Source of the DNA: Caldilineaceae bacterium
GTDB lineage: Bacteria; Chloroflexota; Anaerolineae; Caldilineales; Caldilineaceae
Direction of reading: 5' to 3'
Length of the DNA stretch: 37,369 nt
NCBI GenBank assembly: GCA_022824685.1
Contig: JAJDZJ010000128.1
Coordinates: 1-37,369, forward strand
The notes beneath the pieces were generated by a model. That model saw nothing but the letters and a program-made list of their open reading frames with translations, was not told where the DNA came from and made no database searches. A program made the position numbers and the translations under genes. Below, piece after piece: positions 9,774-20,273 of the stretch (position 1 is its first letter; every line of letters starts with the position of its first letter).

Positions 9774-10925
9774 ATGAGCCGCAGCCGAATTCTAATTCTG
9801 ATGAGCGATACCGGGGGCGGCCACCGCGCCAGCGCCCAGGCCTTGCAGGCCGCCTTCGCCGCCCGCTACCCCGGCCGGTTTGAGGTGGAGATCGTCGATC
9901 TGTGGACCGATTACACCCCCTGGCCCATCAATCGTTTTCCCCGCTTGTACGGCCCGATCATTGGTCGCGCTCTCTGGCTCTGGAGGCTGCTCTGGCTCGT
10001 CTTCGAAAACGAGCGGGGGCACTCTGCCGCGCTGCGCCTGGTCTATCTGCTCTGCCGCAACCGGCTGCGCAAGGTCCTGCAAGCGCATCGTCCGCATCTG
10101 ATCATCTCCGTCCACCCACTGATGCAGCACCTCGTTATGTGGATGCTGGAGCAGGAAGGCGCCGCGATTCCCTTCGCGACGGTCGTCACCGATCTGGCGT
10201 CCTTTCACCATGGTTGGTTCCATGCGCGTGCCGTGCGCTGTTTCGTCGCCAGCGAAGCCGCGGCCGAAGCCGCCAGCCGGCATGGCCTTCGCGCCCGCCT
10301 GCTAGGCCTGCCGGTCCGTCCCGCCTTTTCCCAACCGCTGCCAGATAAGGTGACGGCGCGCGCCCGGTTGGGACTGGCAGAAGGCGGCTTTACGGCGCTG
10401 CTGCTCGGCGGCGGCGAGGGCATGGGCCCGGTCGCGGCGATCGCGCATGCGGTGGCCCGCCGGCTGGGAGCGGAGGGGAAAGATGCGCAACTGGTCGTCA
10501 TCTGCGGCCGCAATGAGCGGCTGCGCCAGTCGCTGCAACGGTCAGATTGGCCGCTTCCGGCGCGTGTGTGCGGCTTTGTGGACAATATGGAGGAATGGAT
10601 GGCCGCCAGCGACTGCGTGATCACCAAGGCCGGGCCGGGCACGATCGCCGAGGCGTTGATCTGCAGGCTGCCGATTCTCCTGAGTGGATTTATTCCCGGG
10701 CAGGAGTCGGGCAACGTGTCGTATGTGGTGGAGAACGGCGTCGGCGCCTATTGCGACTCGCCCGACGGCATCGCCGCTATCGTCAGCGGCTGGGTCGGCG
10801 GCAATGATCTGGCGCAGATGGCAACTCGCGCCCGCAAGCTCGGCCGTCCCCGCGCCGCGTATGATATTGTCGATGAGATTGTGGCGCTTATGGATGGGGA
10901 GATTGCAGAGCCAAGAGATAGTTGA
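9774..10925 (+). CDS. MGDG-synthase-like diacylglycerol glycosyltransferase (GT28 type)
   Basis: A 383-residue protein with the N-terminal signature of the MGDG_synth family (SDTGGGHRASAQALQAAF, residues ~11-28). It has an IISVHPLMQHLV segment, the ATVVTDLASFHHGWFH block and a GT28-like C-terminal half (LLLGGGEGMGP, VCGFVDNMEEWMAASDCVITKAGPGTIAEAL). Such enzymes move galactose or glucose from a UDP-sugar to diacylglycerol at the inner membrane face, making monoglycosyl-diacylglycerol. MurG-type enzymes share only the fold. The TGA stop is inside the TTGACA of the next promoter. A diverged copy of its last ~63 bp lies 837 bp after the matching bases of this gene (see pseudogene at 11705). Confidence 0.87.
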   Translation: MSRSRILILMSDTGGGHRASAQALQAAFAARYPGRFEVEIVDLWTDYTPWPINRFPRLYGPIIGRALWLWRLLWLVFENERGHSAALRLVYLLCRNRLRKVLQAHRPHLIISVHPLMQHLVMWMLEQEGAAIPFATVVTDLASFHHGWFHARAVRCFVASEAAAEAASRHGLRARLLGLPVRPAFSQPLPDKVTARARLGLAEGGFTALLLGGGEGMGPVAAIAHAVARRLGAEGKDAQLVVICGRNERLRQSLQRSDWPLPARVCGFVDNMEEWMAASDCVITKAGPGTIAEALICRLPILLSGFIPGQESGNVSYVVENGVGAYCDSPDGIAAIVSGWVGGNDLAQMATRARKLGRPRAAYDIVDEIVALMDGEIAEPRDS

Positions 10926-10980: not shown

Positions 10981-11238
10981 ATGTCGCAGACAACAAAGAC
11001 AATCACCTTCTCTCTGCCACGTGAAATGGCGGACCGGGTGGAAGAGATGGTGAAGGAAGAAGGCCGTTCCCGGAGTGCGCTTCTGCGTGAAGCTCTGTCC
11101 CGTTACATGGAAGAGAATGAGTGGCGAAAACTCCTTCGCTACGGCGAACAACGGACACGTGACCTGAAGATCAATCCAGAGGATGTCAGTCCCCTGGTGG
11201 AAGAGTACCGGGCAGACATCGGTTCCTCGCGGGCATGA
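10981..11238 (+). CDS. Ribbon-helix-helix antitoxin (CopG/Arc type)
   Basis: The ATG at 10981 is chosen over the GTG at 10975 because AGAGG (10971-10975) lies 5 nt upstream of it; this gives 85 residues. TKTITFSLPREMADRVEEMVKEEGRSRSALLREALSRYM is the ribbon-helix-helix DNA-binding fold: the beta strand ITFSL, then two helices. The C-terminal half is acidic and helical, as expected for the toxin-binding tail. The stop overlaps the next start (ATGA). It should neutralise the PIN protein and repress its own promoter at 10922-10950. Confidence 0.88.
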   Translation: MSQTTKTITFSLPREMADRVEEMVKEEGRSRSALLREALSRYMEENEWRKLLRYGEQRTRDLKINPEDVSPLVEEYRADIGSSRA

Positions 11239-11648
11239 GGGTCGTTCTCGATACCAATGTCATCATTTCTGGTCTGAACTTCCGCGGGAATGAGCGGCTT
11301 GTTCTTGCACTGGCGCGCAGGCGACGGTTCGAGTTGTATCTCTCCTCCTTTATCCTGCAAGAGTCTGCCGGTGTACTGACACGCAAGTTTGGCTGGTCTG
11401 AGGAACGCTCAACCCAGGTTCTTCGAATGTTGCGGAGTACGGCCGCCGTTGTTGAGCCCCAACGAATCCTATCAGTAATCGAAAGCCACCAAGCCGACAA
11501 TCAGATCCTGGCGTGTGCGTTAGAGGCTTCCGCCGACTTTCTAATTACCGGCGATCGGCGGCATCTTTTGCCCCTTGAGACCTACAGAAAAGTGCAAATC
11601 CTCAACGCATCTCATTTTCTGTCTCTCCTCGATGTGAAAGGGAATTGA
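11235..11648 (+). CDS. PIN-domain toxin (COG1569-type endoribonuclease)
   Basis: A 137-residue PIN-family protein whose ATG overlaps the antitoxin stop by 4 nt. The acidic metal-binding residues are all present: Asp6 (LDTN), Glu43 (LQE), Asp88 (DNQIL) and Asp107 (TGDRRHL). It also has the DFLITGDRRHLL segment that marks the 'putative toxin, PIN family' group. Proteins of this group act as Mg-dependent ribonucleases, often on tRNA or rRNA. The pair looks intact and probably functional. Confidence 0.9.
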   Translation: MRVVLDTNVIISGLNFRGNERLVLALARRRRFELYLSSFILQESAGVLTRKFGWSEERSTQVLRMLRSTAAVVEPQRILSVIESHQADNQILACALEASADFLITGDRRHLLPLETYRKVQILNASHFLSLLDVKGN

Positions 11649-11704
11649 GGCAAACTCAGCTATTACAGCGTCTGTAACAATAATTCGTGACTGTGCCTGC
11701 CTCT

Positions 11705-11803
11705 GGAATGAGCCAGAAAGCAACCCGCGCTCGATAGCTCGGTTGTCCTCGCGCCGCTTCTGACATCGTCGATGAGTTCGTGGGGCTTTAGGATGGGGGA
11801 GAG
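11705..11803 (+). pseudogene. Decayed 3' fragment of a second MGDG-synthase-like glycosyltransferase gene
   Basis: Bases 11736-11798 match 10837-10899 of the intact glycosyltransferase at 51 of 63 positions without gaps. In the homologous frame it reads LGCPRAASDIVDEFVGL then a stop, against LGRPRAAYDIVDEIVAL in the intact gene. Six of the twelve differences are at third codon positions, so it derives from a paralogue that diverged as a coding gene, not from a recent slip. Similarity extends weakly upstream to about 11705. Nothing else of that gene is seen. The RHH-PIN pair lies between the two copies. Confidence 0.75.
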
Positions 11804-11833
11804 GCGTGGGTCTGAGGGATCCCGTGTGACCCG

Positions 11834-12067
11834 TCATCCTATCTCGCTGTCTCGGCGCGCACGTTCTTCCATGAGTAGCGTTGCCGCCTCTACGCCAAGA
11901 TCGGTCTCGGGGCGTTGGGCCAAACGCTTCCGCCATTCCCAATGCGCCAACTCCCGTTCTATAGCGCTCAGTGCCACTGCGCGCATGGAGCAGTTGTTTT
12001 CACGCGCATAGCGGCGCAGCCGCTCGTGGAGAGTATCCGGCATGTTTCTGATCTGTAGGTTAGCCAT
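11834..12067 (-). CDS. Orphan FitA-like RHH antitoxin
   Basis: With the ATG at 12067 the product is 77 residues, MANLQIRNMPDTLHERLRRYARENNCSMRAV and on. This is the FitA/VapB-type ribbon-helix-helix start (LQIRNMP, then two helices) seen in antitoxins of VapC-like PIN toxins. The C-terminal half is charged and helical (GVEAATLLMEERARRD). The expected downstream PIN gene is missing: the next 185 bp on the minus strand hold only the glycosyltransferase fragment on the other strand and the PIN toxin tail. It is therefore an orphan antitoxin. A palindrome lies in its promoter region. Confidence 0.75.
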   Translation of the reverse strand: MANLQIRNMPDTLHERLRRYARENNCSMRAVALSAIERELAHWEWRKRLAQRPETDLGVEAATLLMEERARRDSEIG

Positions 12068-12085
12068 GCGATGACAATAGCATGA

Positions 12086-12096
12086 CACGCGGCGTG
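12086..12096. promoter_or_regulatory. Palindromic candidate operator of the FitA-like gene
   Basis: The perfect 11-bp palindrome CACGC-G-GCGTG lies 19 bp upstream of the ATG at 12067. On the minus strand it sits between a weak -35 (TTGATT) and -10 (TATTGT). RHH antitoxins normally bind such inverted repeats in their own promoter. Confidence 0.35.
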
Positions 12097-12179
12097 AAAT
12101 CAAAGTTTTGGAGTGTGAGGAGTAACTTCAAAGTCCAACTGATCTTGCCCTTTGCAATGTCGGGTGGGACAATCGAACC

Positions 12180-12455
12180 ATGATCTACGCATACCCGTGT
12201 GAACTCACCCCCGATGAAGATGGAAGTCTGGTGGCCCTATTCCCTGATGTTCCTGAGGCAATCACGGGCGGCAAAAACCGGACGGAAGCGCTAACAATGG
12301 CCGAAGACGCTCTCGCTACTGCTCTGGCTGGATATGTCCTCGCGCAATGGGAGTTCCCCACGCCCAGTCAACCTGCTTCCGGTCAGGAGCTTGTCGCGGT
12401 GAATCGTTCAACCTTGATCTCTTTGGTACGTTCGCGTACCTGCCACAAGTCATAA
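12180..12455 (+). pseudogene. Truncated hicB-like antitoxin gene
   Basis: The first ~71 residues (MIYAYPCELTPDEDGSLVAL, FPDVPEAITGG, AEDALATALAGY, FPTPSQPASGQELVAV) match HicB antitoxins with the partial RNase-H fold. The HicB C-terminus (valine/leucine-rich linker plus HTH) is missing. After about residue 71 the frame reads into the complement of the higA 3' end and stops at 12455. The join is near 12390-12400. No hicA is visible in the 76 bp upstream. It is probably non-functional as a regulator because the DNA-binding part is gone. Confidence 0.7.
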
Positions 12456-12676
12456 GCCGTCTGCAGGCCCAGCCAAGTCTCTGGAGAAGAGCCGAACGCC
12501 TGGGACAAACGCAGGGCCATGTCGACTGACAGGTCGACTTTCCCGTTTACCAGGCTTGACAATGCCTGCCGGCTTACGCCCAGCCCTTGCGCTGCCCGCG
12601 TCACCGTCAGTCCCAACGGTTCAAGGCAGTCCCACCTTACGATCTCTCCTGGATGGGGCGGGTTGTGCATGGGCAT
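12383..12676 (-). CDS. higA: HigA-family antitoxin (HTH)
   Basis: A 97-residue protein starting MPMHNPPHPGEIVRWDCLEPLGL. It has the HPGEI signature and the helix-turn-helix VTRAAQGLGVSRQALSSLVNGKVDLSVDMALRLSQAFG, followed by PETWLGLQTAYDLW. These mark the HigA/VapI addiction-module antidote family. AGAGGTG stands just before the ATG. It follows a broken higB on the same strand with a 12-bp gap, the normal toxin-first order. The last few residues (TATSS) come from sequence belonging to the antiparallel hicB, so the 3' end was probably created by the same junction that cut hicB. It overlaps hicB tail to tail by 73 bp. Confidence 0.87.
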   Translation of the reverse strand: MPMHNPPHPGEIVRWDCLEPLGLTVTRAAQGLGVSRQALSSLVNGKVDLSVDMALRLSQAFGSSPETWLGLQTAYDLWQVRERTKEIKVERFTATSS

Positions 12677-14504: not shown

Positions 14505-15395
14505 TCACCCACCCATACGTCCGCAATAGTCCAATTGGTGCGCCACATACATTAGCTCCCTGCGGGCGACCTGCCGCCGGCGCATGGCGAGCCACTCCCC
14601 GAACTCGCCCGCGTCCAATTCCGGATGCCCCCGCAGCGTCGACTCCACGAAGTTCAGGATGCAACTGAGAAAGTAGGCTTCGTTGTGGGGATAAGCCCCA
14701 CCGACTGCATGCACGACCCAATCGGAGCTGCCGGCCGCCAGCACCTCGGCCCCGCACGCCCGCAACGCGTGGAACAGCCTGCGCCCCGTGCGGCTGTCGC
14801 CGGAGGGTTGTCCGTCGGTGATGCGCGTGTCCATCGAGCGGTGATAGAGCGCTTCGATCTGGCCATCCAGCGCCGGATCGACTTCGGGCAGAAAGAGCGT
14901 TGCGCCGTCGAAGTTGATGCTGAAATAGAACAGACCGGGCGCACGCGCCATCTGCAACAGGATGGGCAGCGCGGTCGGCAGGTGGAGAAGGTCCAGCAGC
15001 GCGTGCGCGATGATCAGATCGAAGCGCTGCCGGTTTTCCCGCCGGGCCGCGAACGCATACAGATTGGCCGTCTGCAATCGTACCTGCAGCCCCGATTCCG
15101 TGCTCGCAATCAGGTGCGCCAACCGCCGCCGGGCCGCCTCGATATTTCCCTCCTCGCTATCGATCGCAGTGTAATCAACCGCAAAACTCGAGTCAGAAAA
15201 CAACCCCCACTCGACAACGCGTTCGACCATCGTGCCGATGCCCGCGCCCACTTCGAGCACGCGCAAAGGCCGGTCCGGCGGCAGTGCGCCAGCCACAGCA
15301 TCGGCCAGCGTCTGCCAGACGTGCCGGTTGAGCGCGCGGTCGTCTACGGTGCGCTTGGAGGCCAGGTAGCGGGTGAAATCGATGGCGTCTGTCAT
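14505..15395 (-). CDS. Class I SAM-dependent methyltransferase
   Basis: A 296-residue protein with a Rossmann methyltransferase core. Motif I is LRVLEVGAGIGTMVERV at about residues 43-59, an acidic motif II follows (TAIDSEEGNIEAARRRL), then FDLIIAHALLDLL. The C-terminal third (SDWVVHAVGGAYPHNEAYFL, RRELMYVAHQLDYCG) is specific to this subfamily and I do not recognise its substrate. The start is 15 bp after the GT4 stop. It is the last gene of the minus-strand set that begins with the RibA-RibD fusion, so it probably methylates the product of that pathway. Confidence 0.85.
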   Translation of the reverse strand: MTDAIDFTRYLASKRTVDDRALNRHVWQTLADAVAGALPPDRPLRVLEVGAGIGTMVERVVEWGLFSDSSFAVDYTAIDSEEGNIEAARRRLAHLIASTESGLQVRLQTANLYAFAARRENRQRFDLIIAHALLDLLHLPTALPILLQMARAPGLFYFSINFDGATLFLPEVDPALDGQIEALYHRSMDTRITDGQPSGDSRTGRRLFHALRACGAEVLAAGSSDWVVHAVGGAYPHNEAYFLSCILNFVESTLRGHPELDAGEFGEWLAMRRRQVARRELMYVAHQLDYCGRMGG

Positions 15396-15410
15396 GTCAG
15401 GCTCTGTTGG

Positions 15411-16514
15411 TCACCGGACGCAGGCTGCCAGGAACTGGCGTATCTTCGCCGCGGAGTCCGCCCAGCGCGGGTGGGAATCGAAGCGCTGCCGGGCGTTGCG
15501 GCCCAGTTTGGCCAGCTGCTCCCTGTCCTTGGCCAGGCCAGACAGATGCGCGGCGATGCCGTCCGCGTCCGCTGGCTCAAGCGTAAATCCGTTGACGCCG
15601 TGGCTGACGATCTCGCTGCCGCCGCCGTGAACACCGGCCAGCGCCGGCAGCCCGAAGGCCATCGCCTCCAGGTATACGATCCCAAACCCCTCGTAAGACG
15701 GCGCCGCCAGCAGGTGCGCGGCGCTGTACTGCCGTGTCAGCTCGCCGTCCGATACGCGTCCGTGCAGGCGGATGTTCCCATCCAATCCGGCTGCGCTGAT
15801 CTGTTTGCGCACCCCGGCGGCATAAGCGCCATCAACCGCACTGTCGCCGATGACGTCCAGCCGCCAGTCTGTCCGCGGCAGACGGGTGAGCGCGGCGATC
15901 AGATGGTGCAGCCCCTTGCGCGGGATCAGATTGCCGACGAACAGGACGCGCAGCGGGCCAGCGTCGCTCTGCCTGGCGCGGATCAACTCGGCCGCCGCGC
16001 GCTCGTCCGGCGCCGGCAGATGGTCCGCGGCCGGGTACGCGACCACGCCGCCCAACGGAGACAGGTTATCACTCTCTTCTCGCAGTCCGGCCACCGCCTG
16101 CCGGGTCGTCCGGCTGTTGAAGATGAAGCCGTCCACCGAGCGCAGATAGGCGCGTTCGACCGCACGATAAAGCGGCAGCAGACGACGCGGGTGCTGTTCA
16201 CTGCTGCGCAGGTGATGCACGATGCTGATCAGGGGATAGCGGGGTTGGCGCCGCCGCAGCCGCAGGTTGACCAGCGCCAGCGATGGATGGTTCAACTCGT
16301 CCTGCAAGAGAATGTCCACGCGCAGGTCGCGCAGACGCCGGTGCAGGCGCAATGAGAGGTTGTCGGCCAGATGCGCCGGATAGCTGCGCCAGGGGAGCGA
16401 CACGATCTCGACCGCATCGCCGGCCTGGCGCAGATGCTCGACCAGCTTGCGATCATACAGATAGCCGCCCGAGAGAGTATCCAGGGAGCCGTAAATGAGC
16501 AGGCCGATGCGCAT
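15411..16514 (-). CDS. Glycosyltransferase family 4 (GT-B fold)
   Basis: A 367-residue protein. It starts MRIGLLIYGSLDTLSGGYLYD, with a glycine-rich acceptor-side loop. The GT4 donor side follows: LRVLFVGNLIPRKGLHHLI (with the conserved R-K), then the EX7E motif (YEGFGIVYLEAMAFGLP), then GSEIVSHGVNGFTLEP. Such enzymes transfer a sugar from a nucleotide sugar with retention. Placed 21 bp after the PTPS-like gene and 15 bp before the methyltransferase, it probably glycosylates the product of this operon. A cell-surface glycan role is possible but no polysaccharide genes are near. Confidence 0.88.
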   Translation of the reverse strand: MRIGLLIYGSLDTLSGGYLYDRKLVEHLRQAGDAVEIVSLPWRSYPAHLADNLSLRLHRRLRDLRVDILLQDELNHPSLALVNLRLRRRQPRYPLISIVHHLRSSEQHPRRLLPLYRAVERAYLRSVDGFIFNSRTTRQAVAGLREESDNLSPLGGVVAYPAADHLPAPDERAAAELIRARQSDAGPLRVLFVGNLIPRKGLHHLIAALTRLPRTDWRLDVIGDSAVDGAYAAGVRKQISAAGLDGNIRLHGRVSDGELTRQYSAAHLLAAPSYEGFGIVYLEAMAFGLPALAGVHGGGSEIVSHGVNGFTLEPADADGIAAHLSGLAKDREQLAKLGRNARQRFDSHPRWADSAAKIRQFLAACVR

Positions 16515-16535
16515 GGGCCGCGGGGGGGCTCGTGG

Positions 16536-16925
16536 TCAGCGGCCGCCGTTGCGCTCCACCCGGTAGGAGGCCCAGGCGATTTCGTTTTCCCAGATGCGGG
16601 CGGTGATCGCACCGATGTTGGCGGCGTTCAGGCCATTGGAAAAGCTGTTGCCTACGATGCGGCAAAAGTGCTCGATGCTCGGATTGAGTCCGTCGAATTC
16701 CGTCAGTTCATTGAGCGTCTTATCGCGATAGCGGTCCACCAACTCTTCCAACAGCTCCTCTACATGATCGATATCCACCAGGTAGCCGTGCTGGTTCAGT
16801 TCCACGCCCTCCAAGAGGAACTCCAGCCGGTAGTGATGGGAATGCCTGTGATTTTCCGGCCCCCAGTCGCCGCCGATGAGAAAATGCTGGGCGACAAAGT
16901 CCCGCTGCACTGCCAATCTGTACAT
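16536..16925 (-). CDS. PTPS/QueD-like protein lacking the catalytic Cys
   Basis: At 129 residues it has the size of 6-pyruvoyltetrahydropterin synthase / 6-carboxytetrahydropterin synthase. The zinc triad is His14 (AQHF), His26 and His28 (HRH). The pterin-anchoring Glu85 lies in NPSIEHF, equivalent to NPTAE, and LVDIDHVEELL matches the VDF motif. The nucleophilic Cys normally four residues before the H-x-H pair is Gly22 here, with Glu24 nearby. Some PTPS relatives use Glu near this place, so the chemistry may differ from both QueD and PTPS-II. The fold and pterin pocket appear kept. It sits between the dehydrogenase and GT4 genes. Confidence 0.85.
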   Translation of the reverse strand: MYRLAVQRDFVAQHFLIGGDWGPENHRHSHHYRLEFLLEGVELNQHGYLVDIDHVEELLEELVDRYRDKTLNELTEFDGLNPSIEHFCRIVGNSFSNGLNAANIGAITARIWENEIAWASYRVERNGGR

Positions 16926-17009
16926 CGAATCGATCCTTTCGTCCGGGGTCTTGGCTTTCAGTCTATCGCAGCGCGGTCGCGATGTTCACTGAAAACGAAA
17001 AACTGATTG

Positions 17010-18104
17010 CTAGAAGTTGTAGTCGAGAATGACCTGCAAAGTCTGCTCCGGGCGGCTGTCGATCAGCTTGTAGGCTGCAGCGGCCTGCTCCACCGGGAAC
17101 CGGTGCGAGATCAGCTCCTCGGCCGGCAGCTTTGCCAGCAGCTGCCAGGCGCTCTCCATGCGGCGGGCCTTTGTCCAGCGGCCGCGCAGGTGGGGAGCGA
17201 TTGTGCTCACCTGGCTGCTGATCAGGCGGACGCGGTTGCGGTGAAAGGAGCCGCCCAACTGGAGCGCGGCCGCCTTGGTCCCGTACCAGGAGCCGACCAC
17301 GATGCGGCTGTCGAAACCGGCTGCCGAGACCGCCGCATCCAAAGCAGTGGGCTGGCCCGAGAGTTCATAGAGCAGATCGACGCCGCGCCGTTCTCCCGCA
17401 TCTGTCAGTGCCTCCTGCAGCAGGTCAGGGCCGGCGGCGCCGCTAGGGTCGATGGCCTCGCTCGCGCCCAGCCGCAGGGCCAGACGCCGCCGGCGCGGCA
17501 GTGGGTCCACCGCGATCAGCGCATCCAGCGGAAACTGTGCCAGCAGAGCGGTTGTCAGCAGCCCGACGACACCCAGCCCCATCACCGCGACCCGTTCGCC
17601 CACCAGCGGCGCGCCGTCCATCACCAGGTTGACGGCCGTCTCGGCATTGGGCAGCAGCGCGGCCTGCGCCGGCGGCATCCCTTCGGGCACCGGCAGGAGC
17701 GCCTGCGGGCTGGCGCAGAAGTGGCTCTCGTGGGGATGGAAGGCGAAGTAGCAGCGGCTGTCCCCTTCACTCGCGGCGGCTGTCCGCCCGTCCGCTTCCC
17801 GGTTTGCCATCTTTCCAGCCGGCGAACCGGGGAACGCGCAGACGCGCCCTACGCAGGCGTAGCCGTATTTGAGCGGATAGCTTACTTCTCCGGTCAGACC
17901 GGCAATCGAACTGTCGGCGGCCATGCCGGCGGGGACCTGCCCGCGGTAGAAGAGCATCTCCGTGCCGGCGCTGATGGCGGAGACGACCGTTTCGATCAGC
18001 AACTCGCCGCCCTGAGGCGGCGCCATCTCTTCCCTGCATATTTCGACCGCGCCCGGCGCTGTGAACTGCACTGCGCGCCGCTCGACACGATTGGAAGGAT
18101 GCAT
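17010..18104 (-). CDS. Medium-chain dehydrogenase, BchC-like, without visible zinc ligands
   Basis: The start at ATG 18104 overlaps the stop of the RibA-RibD gene by one base (TGATG on the minus strand), so the two are coupled; 364 residues. The Rossmann motif GLGVVG lies in VAVMGLGVVGLLTTALL. The catalytic-domain landmarks of zinc MDRs are altered: GxCGTD is replaced by SAGTEM and GHE by GYA, so the catalytic Cys and His/Glu zinc ligands are missing. The GTE-x-L-x-Y-R-G and YPLKYGYACVGRV patterns recall BchC-type alcohol dehydrogenases. It probably oxidises or reduces a hydroxyalkyl side chain using NAD(P). No other bacteriochlorophyll genes are present, so true BchC function is unlikely. 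Confidence 0.82.
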   Translation of the reverse strand: MHPSNRVERRAVQFTAPGAVEICREEMAPPQGGELLIETVVSAISAGTEMLFYRGQVPAGMAADSSIAGLTGEVSYPLKYGYACVGRVCAFPGSPAGKMANREADGRTAAASEGDSRCYFAFHPHESHFCASPQALLPVPEGMPPAQAALLPNAETAVNLVMDGAPLVGERVAVMGLGVVGLLTTALLAQFPLDALIAVDPLPRRRRLALRLGASEAIDPSGAAGPDLLQEALTDAGERRGVDLLYELSGQPTALDAAVSAAGFDSRIVVGSWYGTKAAALQLGGSFHRNRVRLISSQVSTIAPHLRGRWTKARRMESAWQLLAKLPAEELISHRFPVEQAAAAYKLIDSRPEQTLQVILDYNF

Positions 18105-19627
18105 CACGCGCCGGACCTGCCGTTCCGGGCAGTTCTCTCCCCGAACTCCCCCCACAGTACCGTATCGGTCGCCAGCCGCACCTGCTGGACATTCTGCAGC
18201 CGCGGCATCACGGCGCCGAATTCGCCTCCCGCGCGCGCTGGCTGGATCACCTGGTATCCGCCCAGAAAGACCGGCGCGATCGTGATCACGGCGTAGTCCG
18301 CCAGGCCGTTTTCCAGGAAACTCGTCAGAACGCGGGCGCCCCCTTCGACCATCAGCGAACCGACGCCCTCGGCGCCGAGTTGGGTGAGGAGGGCGGCCAA
18401 ATCCACGCGGCCTTCACTGTCTGCGGGCAGAGTCAGGATACGTGCGCCGGCCTCTTCCAGGTGTCTCCGGCGAGAAGACCGCGCGCCCTCGGGCGTGGTC
18501 GCAATCCAGGCGCGGCCGTGCAGAAGACGGGCGTCCGGCGGCATGCGCAGTAGGGAGTCGACGATCACCGGCTGGGGGTTGTCACCGGAAACCAGCCGCA
18601 CCGTCAATGCGGGATTGTCGGCCAGCACCGTTTCGATGCCGACCAGAATCGCGCTGTGCACGGCCCGCAGCGCGTGGGTCATCGTCAGAGAGGCGGGGCC
18701 GCTGATGGGGAAGGCCGTTCCCTGATCGGTGGTGAGGCAACCGTCCAGGCTTTGGGCATAGCTCAAGGTGACAAATGGCCAGGGAGAGAGAGGTGACGCA
18801 TTCTTCCTCCCTTTATCTCTTTCCTCATCGCGGACATGGCTCTGTATGCGGGTTCGCAAGCCATCGAGTTGCGGCCGATACGCTTCCACCTGGCCATGCG
18901 TGCGGTGTTCTTTCTCTCCTCGCTTCTCTTCACCCTCTTCTACTGTCTCCGGCTCGCCCTGCCCGTTCAGCCTGATGATGTGGCGCATCCGGGCGACCTT
19001 CGTCTCCAGGTAGGCGCGGTTTTCCGGATTCGACCGCATCTGCAGGGGGATCCGTTCCCGCACCTCGACACCCAGCCCGGCCAGACCTTCGATCTTGGCC
19101 GGGTTGTTCGTCAACAACCGCACCGACCGAACGTCCAACTCCCGCAGGATCAGGGCGGCGGCCGTATAGTCCCGCTCGTCGGCCTGGTGGCCCAACAGCA
19201 GGTTGGCGTCAACCGTGTCATAGCCCTCGTCCTGCAGATTGTAGGCACGCAGCTTCTCCTCCAGGCCGATGCCCCGCCCCTCCTGCCGCAGATAGATGAG
19301 CGCGCCCCGTCCTTCCGCGGCGATCGCCTCTATCGCCCGCGTCAACTGCTCGCCGCAGTCGCAGCGTTGCGAGCCCAGCACGTCCCCGGTGAAACATTCC
19401 GAATGGATGCGGACAAGCAGATCCTCGCCCTCGGCGTCCCCGAGCACCAGGGCCAAGTGGTTCTTTTCGTCCCACGCGCTGTAAAAGTGATGCAGGTAGA
19501 AAGCGCCGTCCGCGGTGGGGATGCGGGCCGTGACCGTACGTTTCACCGCCATCCGCGGGCGGCAAGGCGGGCTATTCTTCGATTCAGAGGAGCCCGGAGG
19601 GTGCCCGGCAACGGTTGTATCCGACAT
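18104..19627 (-). CDS. GTP cyclohydrolase II - RibD-type reductase fusion
   Basis: With ATG 19627 the product is 507 residues. Residues ~26-220 are GTP cyclohydrolase II (RibA). Zinc ligands Cys78, Cys89 and Cys91 lie in HSECFTGDVLGSQRCDCG; YLRQEGRGIGL and TNNPAKIEGL complete the active site. It converts GTP to the 2,5-diamino-6-ribosylamino-pyrimidinone phosphate. Residues ~222-283 are a charged, low-complexity linker. Residues ~284-500 are a RibD C-terminal reductase domain (FVTLSYAQSLDG, NPALTVRL, VEGGARVLTSFLENGLAD) that would reduce the ribosyl chain. There is no RibD deaminase domain and no lumazine or riboflavin synthase nearby. A later start, MAVKRTVTARIP at residue 26, is equally plausible. 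It is the first gene of the coupled pterin-like set. Confidence 0.9.
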   Translation of the reverse strand: MSDTTVAGHPPGSSESKNSPPCRPRMAVKRTVTARIPTADGAFYLHHFYSAWDEKNHLALVLGDAEGEDLLVRIHSECFTGDVLGSQRCDCGEQLTRAIEAIAAEGRGALIYLRQEGRGIGLEEKLRAYNLQDEGYDTVDANLLLGHQADERDYTAAALILRELDVRSVRLLTNNPAKIEGLAGLGVEVRERIPLQMRSNPENRAYLETKVARMRHIIRLNGQGEPETVEEGEEKRGEKEHRTHGQVEAYRPQLDGLRTRIQSHVRDEERDKGRKNASPLSPWPFVTLSYAQSLDGCLTTDQGTAFPISGPASLTMTHALRAVHSAILVGIETVLADNPALTVRLVSGDNPQPVIVDSLLRMPPDARLLHGRAWIATTPEGARSSRRRHLEEAGARILTLPADSEGRVDLAALLTQLGAEGVGSLMVEGGARVLTSFLENGLADYAVITIAPVFLGGYQVIQPARAGGEFGAVMPRLQNVQQVRLATDTVLWGEFGERTARNGRSGA

Positions 19628-19646: not shown

Positions 19647-20273
19647 CTAGCTGAACCGTTCCTCCAGCCAGGGGTCCCCCTCCATGTGGTAACCGTGGCG
19701 TTCCCAAAAGCCGGGCCGGTCGCCGCGCAAAAACTCCAGTCCCCGCAGCCATTTGGCGCTCTTCCAGAAATATTTCTTCGGCACCAGCAGCCGCAGAGGA
19801 TAGCCGTGGTCCGGTTCGATCGCTTTGCCCTGATAGAGATAGGCGAGCATCGTGTCGTCGTCGTCGAGCACATCCAGGGCGATATTTGTCGTATAGCCTC
19901 CGTCGCAATGGGCCATCACGTGTGTGGCTGCCGGGTCGACTTCGATGTGGCGCAAAAACGCCCGCCACGGCACACCCGTCCAGGTCGTGTCCAGTTTGCT
20001 CCAGCGGGTAACGCAGTGGATGTCAACGGTCTGGGTTTTGGTCGGCAGCGCCATCAACTCATCCCAGGAGAAGCGCTTCTCCTGGGCAAGCCCGGAGATC
20101 GACAGGTCCCAACCATCCAGCGAGGTGTATTGAAAGGTCGGCCCGTAGGTCAACACCGGAAACTTCTTGGTAATAAACTGGCCCGGCGGCACCCGCTCTT
20201 CGCGGGGATTCGCGGGCAGATTCTTGACCCGCTTCAGCCGTTCAACTTTGCGAAAGGGATTTTCGATACGCAT
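19647..20273 (-). CDS. Soluble sulfite-oxidase-like molybdopterin oxidoreductase
   Basis: A 208-residue protein consisting of a single oxidoreductase molybdopterin-binding domain. The N-terminal [16 protein letters not shown] is typical of the cytoplasmic 'sulfite oxidase-like oxidoreductase' group. The Mo-ligating Cys is in [12 protein letters not shown], and [18 protein letters not shown] is the conserved pterin-side segment. There is no Tat signal and no haem or dimerisation domain, unlike MsrP or SorA. Substrate is unknown. It lies 78 bp downstream of fabF and 19 bp upstream of the RibA-RibD fusion, so it may be co-transcribed with the latter. Confidence 0.87.

Follow-up and report, generated by a model that had tools for sequence, protein, structure and literature searches.

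Which metabolite is made by a gene cluster that begins as riboflavin synthesis does, with GTP cyclohydrolase II, and continues with a pterin-type enzyme, a glycosyltransferase and a methyltransferase? The cluster, termed the cassette here, lies in a 37,369-nucleotide stretch of DNA (contig JAJDZJ010000128.1, the window) that belongs to contig 7 of a Caldilineaceae metagenome-assembled genome (MAG; Chloroflexota, 5.23 Mb, 98.7% complete). It encodes a RibA-RibD_C fusion, a medium-chain dehydrogenase/reductase (MDR), a protein with the 6-pyruvoyltetrahydropterin synthase (PTPS) fold, a family 4 glycosyltransferase (GT4) and a methyltransferase (MT). The cassette is a real, conserved and uncharacterised biosynthetic gene set that probably turns GTP into a sugar-decorated, methylated pterin-like compound, bypassing the usual pterin enzyme and the vitamin B2 pathway. 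The pathway class is likely, and the product is predicted from the sequences. That the cassette is a dedicated, horizontally spreading set by which GTP becomes a reduced, glycosylated and methylated pterin with no GTP cyclohydrolase I involved has, in our estimate, about an even chance of being correct. The observed basis consists of the gene set, its conservation, a RibA with a non-riboflavin role, the lost catalytic triad of the PTPS and its retained pterin-anchoring glutamate.

Organization of the Cassette

The five genes share the minus strand at the coordinates assigned in the first-pass annotation, which was made from the window sequence alone. The order of transcription is the 507-residue RibA-RibD_C fusion (18104..19627; PF00925 4e-66, PF01872 7.9e-44), the zinc-less MDR, which resembles BchC and threonine dehydrogenase (17010..18104; PF00107 3.6e-10; TIGR01202, bchC, 2.5e-21, below its cut-off), the PTPS-fold protein without a Cys/Asp/His triad (16536..16925; PF01242 3.7e-24), the GT4 (15411..16514; PF00534 1.5e-36) and a class I SAM methyltransferase of an unnamed family (14505..15395; weak Pfam methyltransferase matches). 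The intergenic gaps are -1, 84, 21 and 15 bp, the first arising because the TGA stop of the fusion and the ATG start of the MDR share an A (TGATG) at 18104. Within the fusion the GTP cyclohydrolase II domain (PF00925) occupies 19540-19046 and the pyrimidine reductase domain (PF01872) 18778-18158; these are the only two domains matched, and the RibD deaminase domain is absent from the fusion, a result that does not exclude one in the rest of the genome.

Conservation of the Gene Set

A scan of genome contigs with the PTPS alignment returned 535 relatives, of which the best 80 were examined, and 54 of these loci had full flanks. MDR is present in 48 of the 54, GT4 in 47, RibD_C in 44, the methyltransferase in 42 and RibA in 40. 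Carriers include many Chloroflexota families and Desulfobacterota. Plasmid records place the set in rhizobia (Agrobacterium and Rhizobium), in Methylosinus trichosporium OB3b and in Palleronia, Thiodictyon, Streptomyces and haloarchaea. The occurrence of one gene order in unrelated phyla had been set beforehand as a supporting check, and it is found, with the same order in distant lineages at 40-65% protein identity. The neighborhood is likewise conserved between close relatives, where free exchange of neighbors would have spoken against a functional set. The genes fabF and OTC, which flank the window cassette, serve as a negative control, being conserved only within Caldilineaceae; chance linkage is excluded because the cassette order recurs in distant lineages while these flanks remain confined to one family. 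The four core proteins also covary in their distances, with Spearman coefficients of 0.69-0.81 overall and 0.24-0.54 within the first arm.

The arrangement varies between lineages. The Agrobacterium/Rhizobium set comprises RibA, a CDP-alcohol phosphotransferase (CDP-AP), a flippase-like protein, MDR, PTPS, GT4, MT and RibD. In five loci from MAGs labeled Deltaproteobacteria, Syntrophaceae or Desulfomonile the genes form a compact operon, RibD_C-MDR-PTPS-GT4-MT, in which starts overlap; the five cluster together in the concatenated tree, and the three examined gene by gene have flanking genes of their own in common. A deeper branch, whose family is probably Chloroflexaceae, has the order MTase-FolB-RibD_C-MDR-PTPS-GT4, and FolB lies inside the operon in nine Chloroflexaceae-type loci, overlapping or abutting RibD_C.

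Several neighbors were considered and set aside. A sulfite-oxidase-like molybdopterin oxidoreductase (19647..20273, minus strand; PF00174 7.4e-40), whose gene ends 19 bp upstream of the fusion, had been suggested as a possible member; it adjoins the cassette in all 18 Caldilineaceae loci and in none of 35 others, and it is a family-specific neighbor and not a core gene. fabF, OTC and carbamate kinase are rejected as partners on the ground of family synteny. A ComB-like (2-phosphosulfolactate-phosphatase) gene separates MDR from PTPS in some Anaerolineales (L042, L045, L048, L049, L054, L055 and L059), and this local occurrence rejects it as a general member.

A RibA outside Riboflavin Synthesis

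The domain families of the fusion are those of riboflavin synthesis, and the simplest explanation would be a housekeeping RibA/RibD. Genome-wide profile searches of the host give a single PF00925 match and a single PTPS, both in the cassette, and no match to RibH (PF00885), FolE, FolE2 or FolB. The lack of ribH beside the cassette, pointed out in the first-pass annotation, thus extends to the whole genome, and the fusion is not the housekeeping riboflavin enzyme because that genome is without RibH. The same pattern appears in a sample of 120 genomes of the host's class, 16 of which are positive for the PTPS subfamily at E<1e-50; RibA is found in 15 of these, and none has RibH. When the 106 genomes negative for RibH are considered, RibA occurs in 15/16 with the PTPS versus 2/90 without it (Fisher p=3e-15, on related genomes uncorrected for phylogeny, so that the value is not a formal probability). 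RibA in the host's class therefore accompanies one of two partners, RibH or the cassette. With the missing deaminase and the conserved linkage to PTPS, GT4 and MT in addition, ordinary riboflavin biosynthesis is rejected as the role of the fusion, and we give it almost no credence. One genome of the sample (G436) has a RibH match without any RibA match.

The cyclohydrolase itself appears intact, with the three zinc cysteines present in 54/54 cluster RibA sequences and the catalytic tyrosine in 53/54, the window included in both; Streptomyces globisporus has methionine instead. In the Haloarcula loci RibA is replaced by the unrelated archaeal GTP cyclohydrolase III (GCH III; PF05165 2e-82). Both the Met-type RibA and GCH III give a formylated pyrimidine, and the archaeal deformylase ArfB belongs to the creatininase superfamily; a creatininase-family gene adjoins RibA in S. 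fungicidicus and also lies near the cluster in H. marismortui. The GTP cyclohydrolase II, Met variant and GCH III routes all lead to a diaminopyrimidine and not to dihydroneopterin triphosphate.

With the reductase half of RibD alone, the 2-amino group would survive, as befits a pterin rather than a flavin or deazaflavin. This bears on a second explanation, that the cassette feeds coenzyme F420. RibA and RibD_C lead toward the precursor of the deazaflavin FO, and F420 is made by haloarchaea and Streptomyces, two of the carrier groups. However, FO requires the deaminated precursor ribitylaminouracil, and the deaminase domain is missing; no FO-synthase (CofG/CofH) gene is seen in the inspected loci, F420 genes not having been searched genome-wide; and the Agrobacterium, Rhizobium and Methylosinus carriers are not known F420 producers. 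An F420 role is accordingly highly improbable, although PTPS-IV, a PTPS subfamily, is said in an unpublished remark in PMC5041015 to act in F420 synthesis.

A PTPS-fold Protein without the Catalytic Triad

The PTPS had been described as Cys-less, and a glutamate (E24) indeed occupies the catalytic cysteine position, invariant in 30/30 members of PTPS alignment A1. Among MDR-linked PTPSs the Cys-Asp-His triad is lost in 119/119 and the pterin-anchoring glutamate kept in 118/119 (Glu113 in the window protein). Six canonical, unlinked PTPSs retain the Cys, Asp, His and Glu; the canonical PTPSs of L065, L068 and L188-L190 give the same Cys/Asp/His pattern as the Escherichia coli QueD marker sequence. 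The AlphaFold model of the window protein (pLDDT 94) has the T-fold, and its best match in the PDB, by profile and by fold, is 3d7j (SCO6650). Together with the anchoring glutamate this points to a PTPS fold with a predicted pterin-binding pocket.

The motifs of PTPS-I to PTPS-IV are missing. In place of the PTPS-I/QueD motif CxxxHGH and its Asp-His dyad, the window protein has E-N-H-R-H-S-H and Arg-Asp, and it scores 42 bits against TIGR03367 (cut-off 89). The PTPS-II motif CxxxxxHGH fails with no cysteine at the site, and the PTPS-III motif ExxHGH with Asn at that Glu position and Ser for Gly. DWGPEN stands in place of the PTPS-IV signature FGPAQ, which is found in L196, L200 and L201 (FGPAT in Chloroflexaceae), whereas the PTPS-IV neighborhood with PF00925 and PF01872 is present at the window. 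A queuosine role is rejected because the PTPS-I/QueD motifs fail and the genome has no PTPS other than that of the cassette. NCBI records L193-L208 give triad-less PTPSs the name 6-carboxytetrahydropterin synthase and a queuosine GO term, an annotation at odds with their motifs. In one 4.68 Mb Chloroflexaceae-type genome (L180) the PTPS occurs twice, with about 4 kb between the copies and only a short GT4 match after the first.

Classical PTPS chemistry is unlikely because every linked member has lost the triad, and the protein might only bind a pyrimidine without forming a pterin ring. The product would then be a diaminopyrimidine or another non-pterin, such as a ribitylaminopyrimidine glycoside or a deazapurine-like nucleoside, an explanation favored by the solid GTP cyclohydrolase II and RibD_C start. 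We consider it unlikely, since the pterin-anchoring glutamate is kept, the closest structure is that of a PTPS homologue, and FolB, whose substrate in known pathways is dihydroneopterin, is embedded in the Chloroflexaceae operon.

Another use of a pterin would be in folate synthesis, with the cassette supplying 6-hydroxymethyldihydropterin so that FolE and FolB are bypassed, in the way that PTPS-III bypasses FolB. The host fits this in encoding a FolK-FolP fusion (L153:735-2195, contig 59) without FolE, FolE2 or FolB. Both FolE and FolE2 are missing in six of the 16 PTPS-positive genomes, the host included; four of these six also lack FolK, whereas the other ten have FolE or FolE2 anyway. The GT4 and methyltransferase would be superfluous, and the glutamate lies at the Cys position and not at that of the PTPS-III ExxHGH motif. 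The folate bypass is rejected as the main role by the FolK-less carriers and the differing motif; as a rival explanation it is retained, and judged quite improbable. In seven Anaerolineae genomes (G404, G413, G425, G434, G456, G466 and G491) HPPK and FolE2 matches are adjacent in long frames of ~360-570 amino acids, which points to a FolK-FolE2 fusion.

The Dehydrogenase and the Tailoring Enzymes

In the MDR, residue checks bear out the earlier description of a dehydrogenase without zinc ligands; the canonical zinc-ligand residues are missing, and the GxGxVG dinucleotide motif and an invariant D217 are kept. The Haloarcula pelagica MDR is 48% identical to that of the window. The best named relative is BchC, an enzyme that converts a secondary alcohol to a ketone. 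The score against TIGR01202 (76 bits, cut-off 291) places the MDR outside the BchC family, and unlike BchC it lies outside any bacteriochlorophyll context. By analogy it is proposed to be a side-chain alcohol oxidase. The nearest solved relatives of the GT4 are Tll1590, Alr3699 and an inositol-phosphate glycosyltransferase. The methyltransferase has no NCBIfam match above cut-off, and its model (pLDDT 92.5) matches only generic SAM methyltransferases in the fold search.

A Proposed Route to a Decorated Pterin

Atom mapping and knowledge of the families suggest the following route to a reduced pterin. RibA would open GTP to 2,5-diamino-6-ribosylamino-4(3H)-pyrimidinone 5'-phosphate, and RibD_C, without a deaminase, would turn the ribosyl into a ribityl chain with the 2-amino group left in place. 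The zinc-less MDR may then oxidize a secondary alcohol of the ribityl chain, probably at C2', to a ketone, on which the 5-amino group could close to give 7,8-dihydroneopterin phosphate. The PTPS-fold protein would grip the 2-amino-4-oxo ring through Glu113 and either promote closure or trim the side chain, after which the GT4 would add a sugar and the methyltransferase would methylate the product. The reductase and dehydrogenase steps would jointly stand in for the Amadori rearrangement inside cyclohydrolase I, reaching the same skeleton. The idea of a glycosylated pterin-like product starting from GTP cyclohydrolase II, already put forward in the first-pass annotation, remains the best reading, the chemistry being inferred.

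Several points weigh against this reading. The activity of every cassette enzyme is a prediction from sequence, and the NAD-dependent step assigned to the zinc-less MDR, oxidation of a ribityl alcohol, is argued from the BchC analogy. One genome (G184) has the PTPS without RibA, and two (G046 and G461) have RibA while lacking both RibH and a close PTPS. In many Anaerolineales RibA and RibD_C are not in the local cluster and form a divergent pair elsewhere, and FolB is part of the operon in Chloroflexaceae only.

Lipid-related Neighbors and Other Features

Four families are recurrent neighbors of the cassette in many Chloroflexota, namely CDP-AP (PF01066), LPG_synthase_TM (PF03706), small membrane proteins resembling DUF7475 and PlsC-like acyltransferases. 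CDP-AP and LPG_synthase_TM also adjoin it in rhizobia and Streptomyces, and CDP-AP in haloarchaea; the first three families are seen at L109:4978-7562, L107:12546-15385, L170:3216-4037 and L201:2211-4689. None of the four is found beside the window cassette, the rest of the genome not having been searched for them. The CDP-AP and flippase-like neighbors hint at a lipid-linked or exported product, which may be lipid-anchored in the lineages that have these genes. The widest form of the proposal is a cyclohydrolase-I-independent pterin route in bacteria and archaea, in which RibD_C and MDR would replace the Amadori step, the triad-less PTPS would close the ring, and the glycosylated, methylated pterin would in many lineages be attached to a phospholipid by CDP-AP and moved by the flippase-like protein; taken as a whole it is tentative and rather doubtful.

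Elsewhere in the window, an MGDG-synthase-like lipid glycosyltransferase is encoded on the opposite strand (9774-10925), and a PIN-domain protein, a HicB-like small protein and an HTH_3 protein are clustered at 11235-12676, possibly as toxin-antitoxin modules.

Comparison with Known Systems

That haloarchaea and several phyla of bacteria carry the cassette, chromosomally as well as on plasmids, implies that its small-molecule product, still unnamed, is useful. The cassette gives a role to triad-less PTPSs, which databases treat as queuosine enzymes, and to the RibA copies of genomes that lack lumazine synthase, and it raises a question testable in cultured strains, that of pterins made without GTP cyclohydrolase I. 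Literature text searches turned up no account of the complete gene set or of what it makes, most subscription journals lying outside their coverage.

The closest solved structure to the window PTPS is SCO6650 of Streptomyces coelicolor (PDB code 3d7j; profile 4e-16, fold TM 0.87), which reportedly has no zinc, triad or PTPS activity. The SCO6650-related cluster of S. fungicidicus holds CDP-AP, MDR, PTPS, GT4, MT, creatininase and RibA. The SCO6650 type differs in having FGPAQ with HGA, whereas the window PTPS has GGDWGPEN, Glu at the Cys position and three zinc-ligand positions kept, and in the window RibA is fused to RibD_C.

The PTPS-IV group of COG0720 has a neighborhood in common with the window and differs in its FGPAQ signature. 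PMC5041015 lists the PTPS subfamilies with their motifs and calls the role of PTPS-V unclear, and PMC5445326 reported in 2017, without a function, that PTPS-IV neighborhoods hold PF00925 and PF01872. The association of this kind of PTPS with the two families was partly noted before, as PTPS-IV; in the accessible portions of these two accounts MDR, GT4, MT, CDP-AP, LPG_TM and GCH III partners are not mentioned. PTPS-III is similar in the loss of Cys and a Glu near the catalytic site, but the window Glu precedes the first His by four residues instead of three, and the Asp-His dyad is lost.

The pterin glycosides of cyanobacteria and Chlorobium (cyanopterin; the Chlorobium pteridine glycosyltransferase, PMC5683033) likewise combine a pterin with a sugar and are sometimes methylated. 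Those pathways start from GTP cyclohydrolase I and PTPS-II, whereas the cassette starts from cyclohydrolase II or III.

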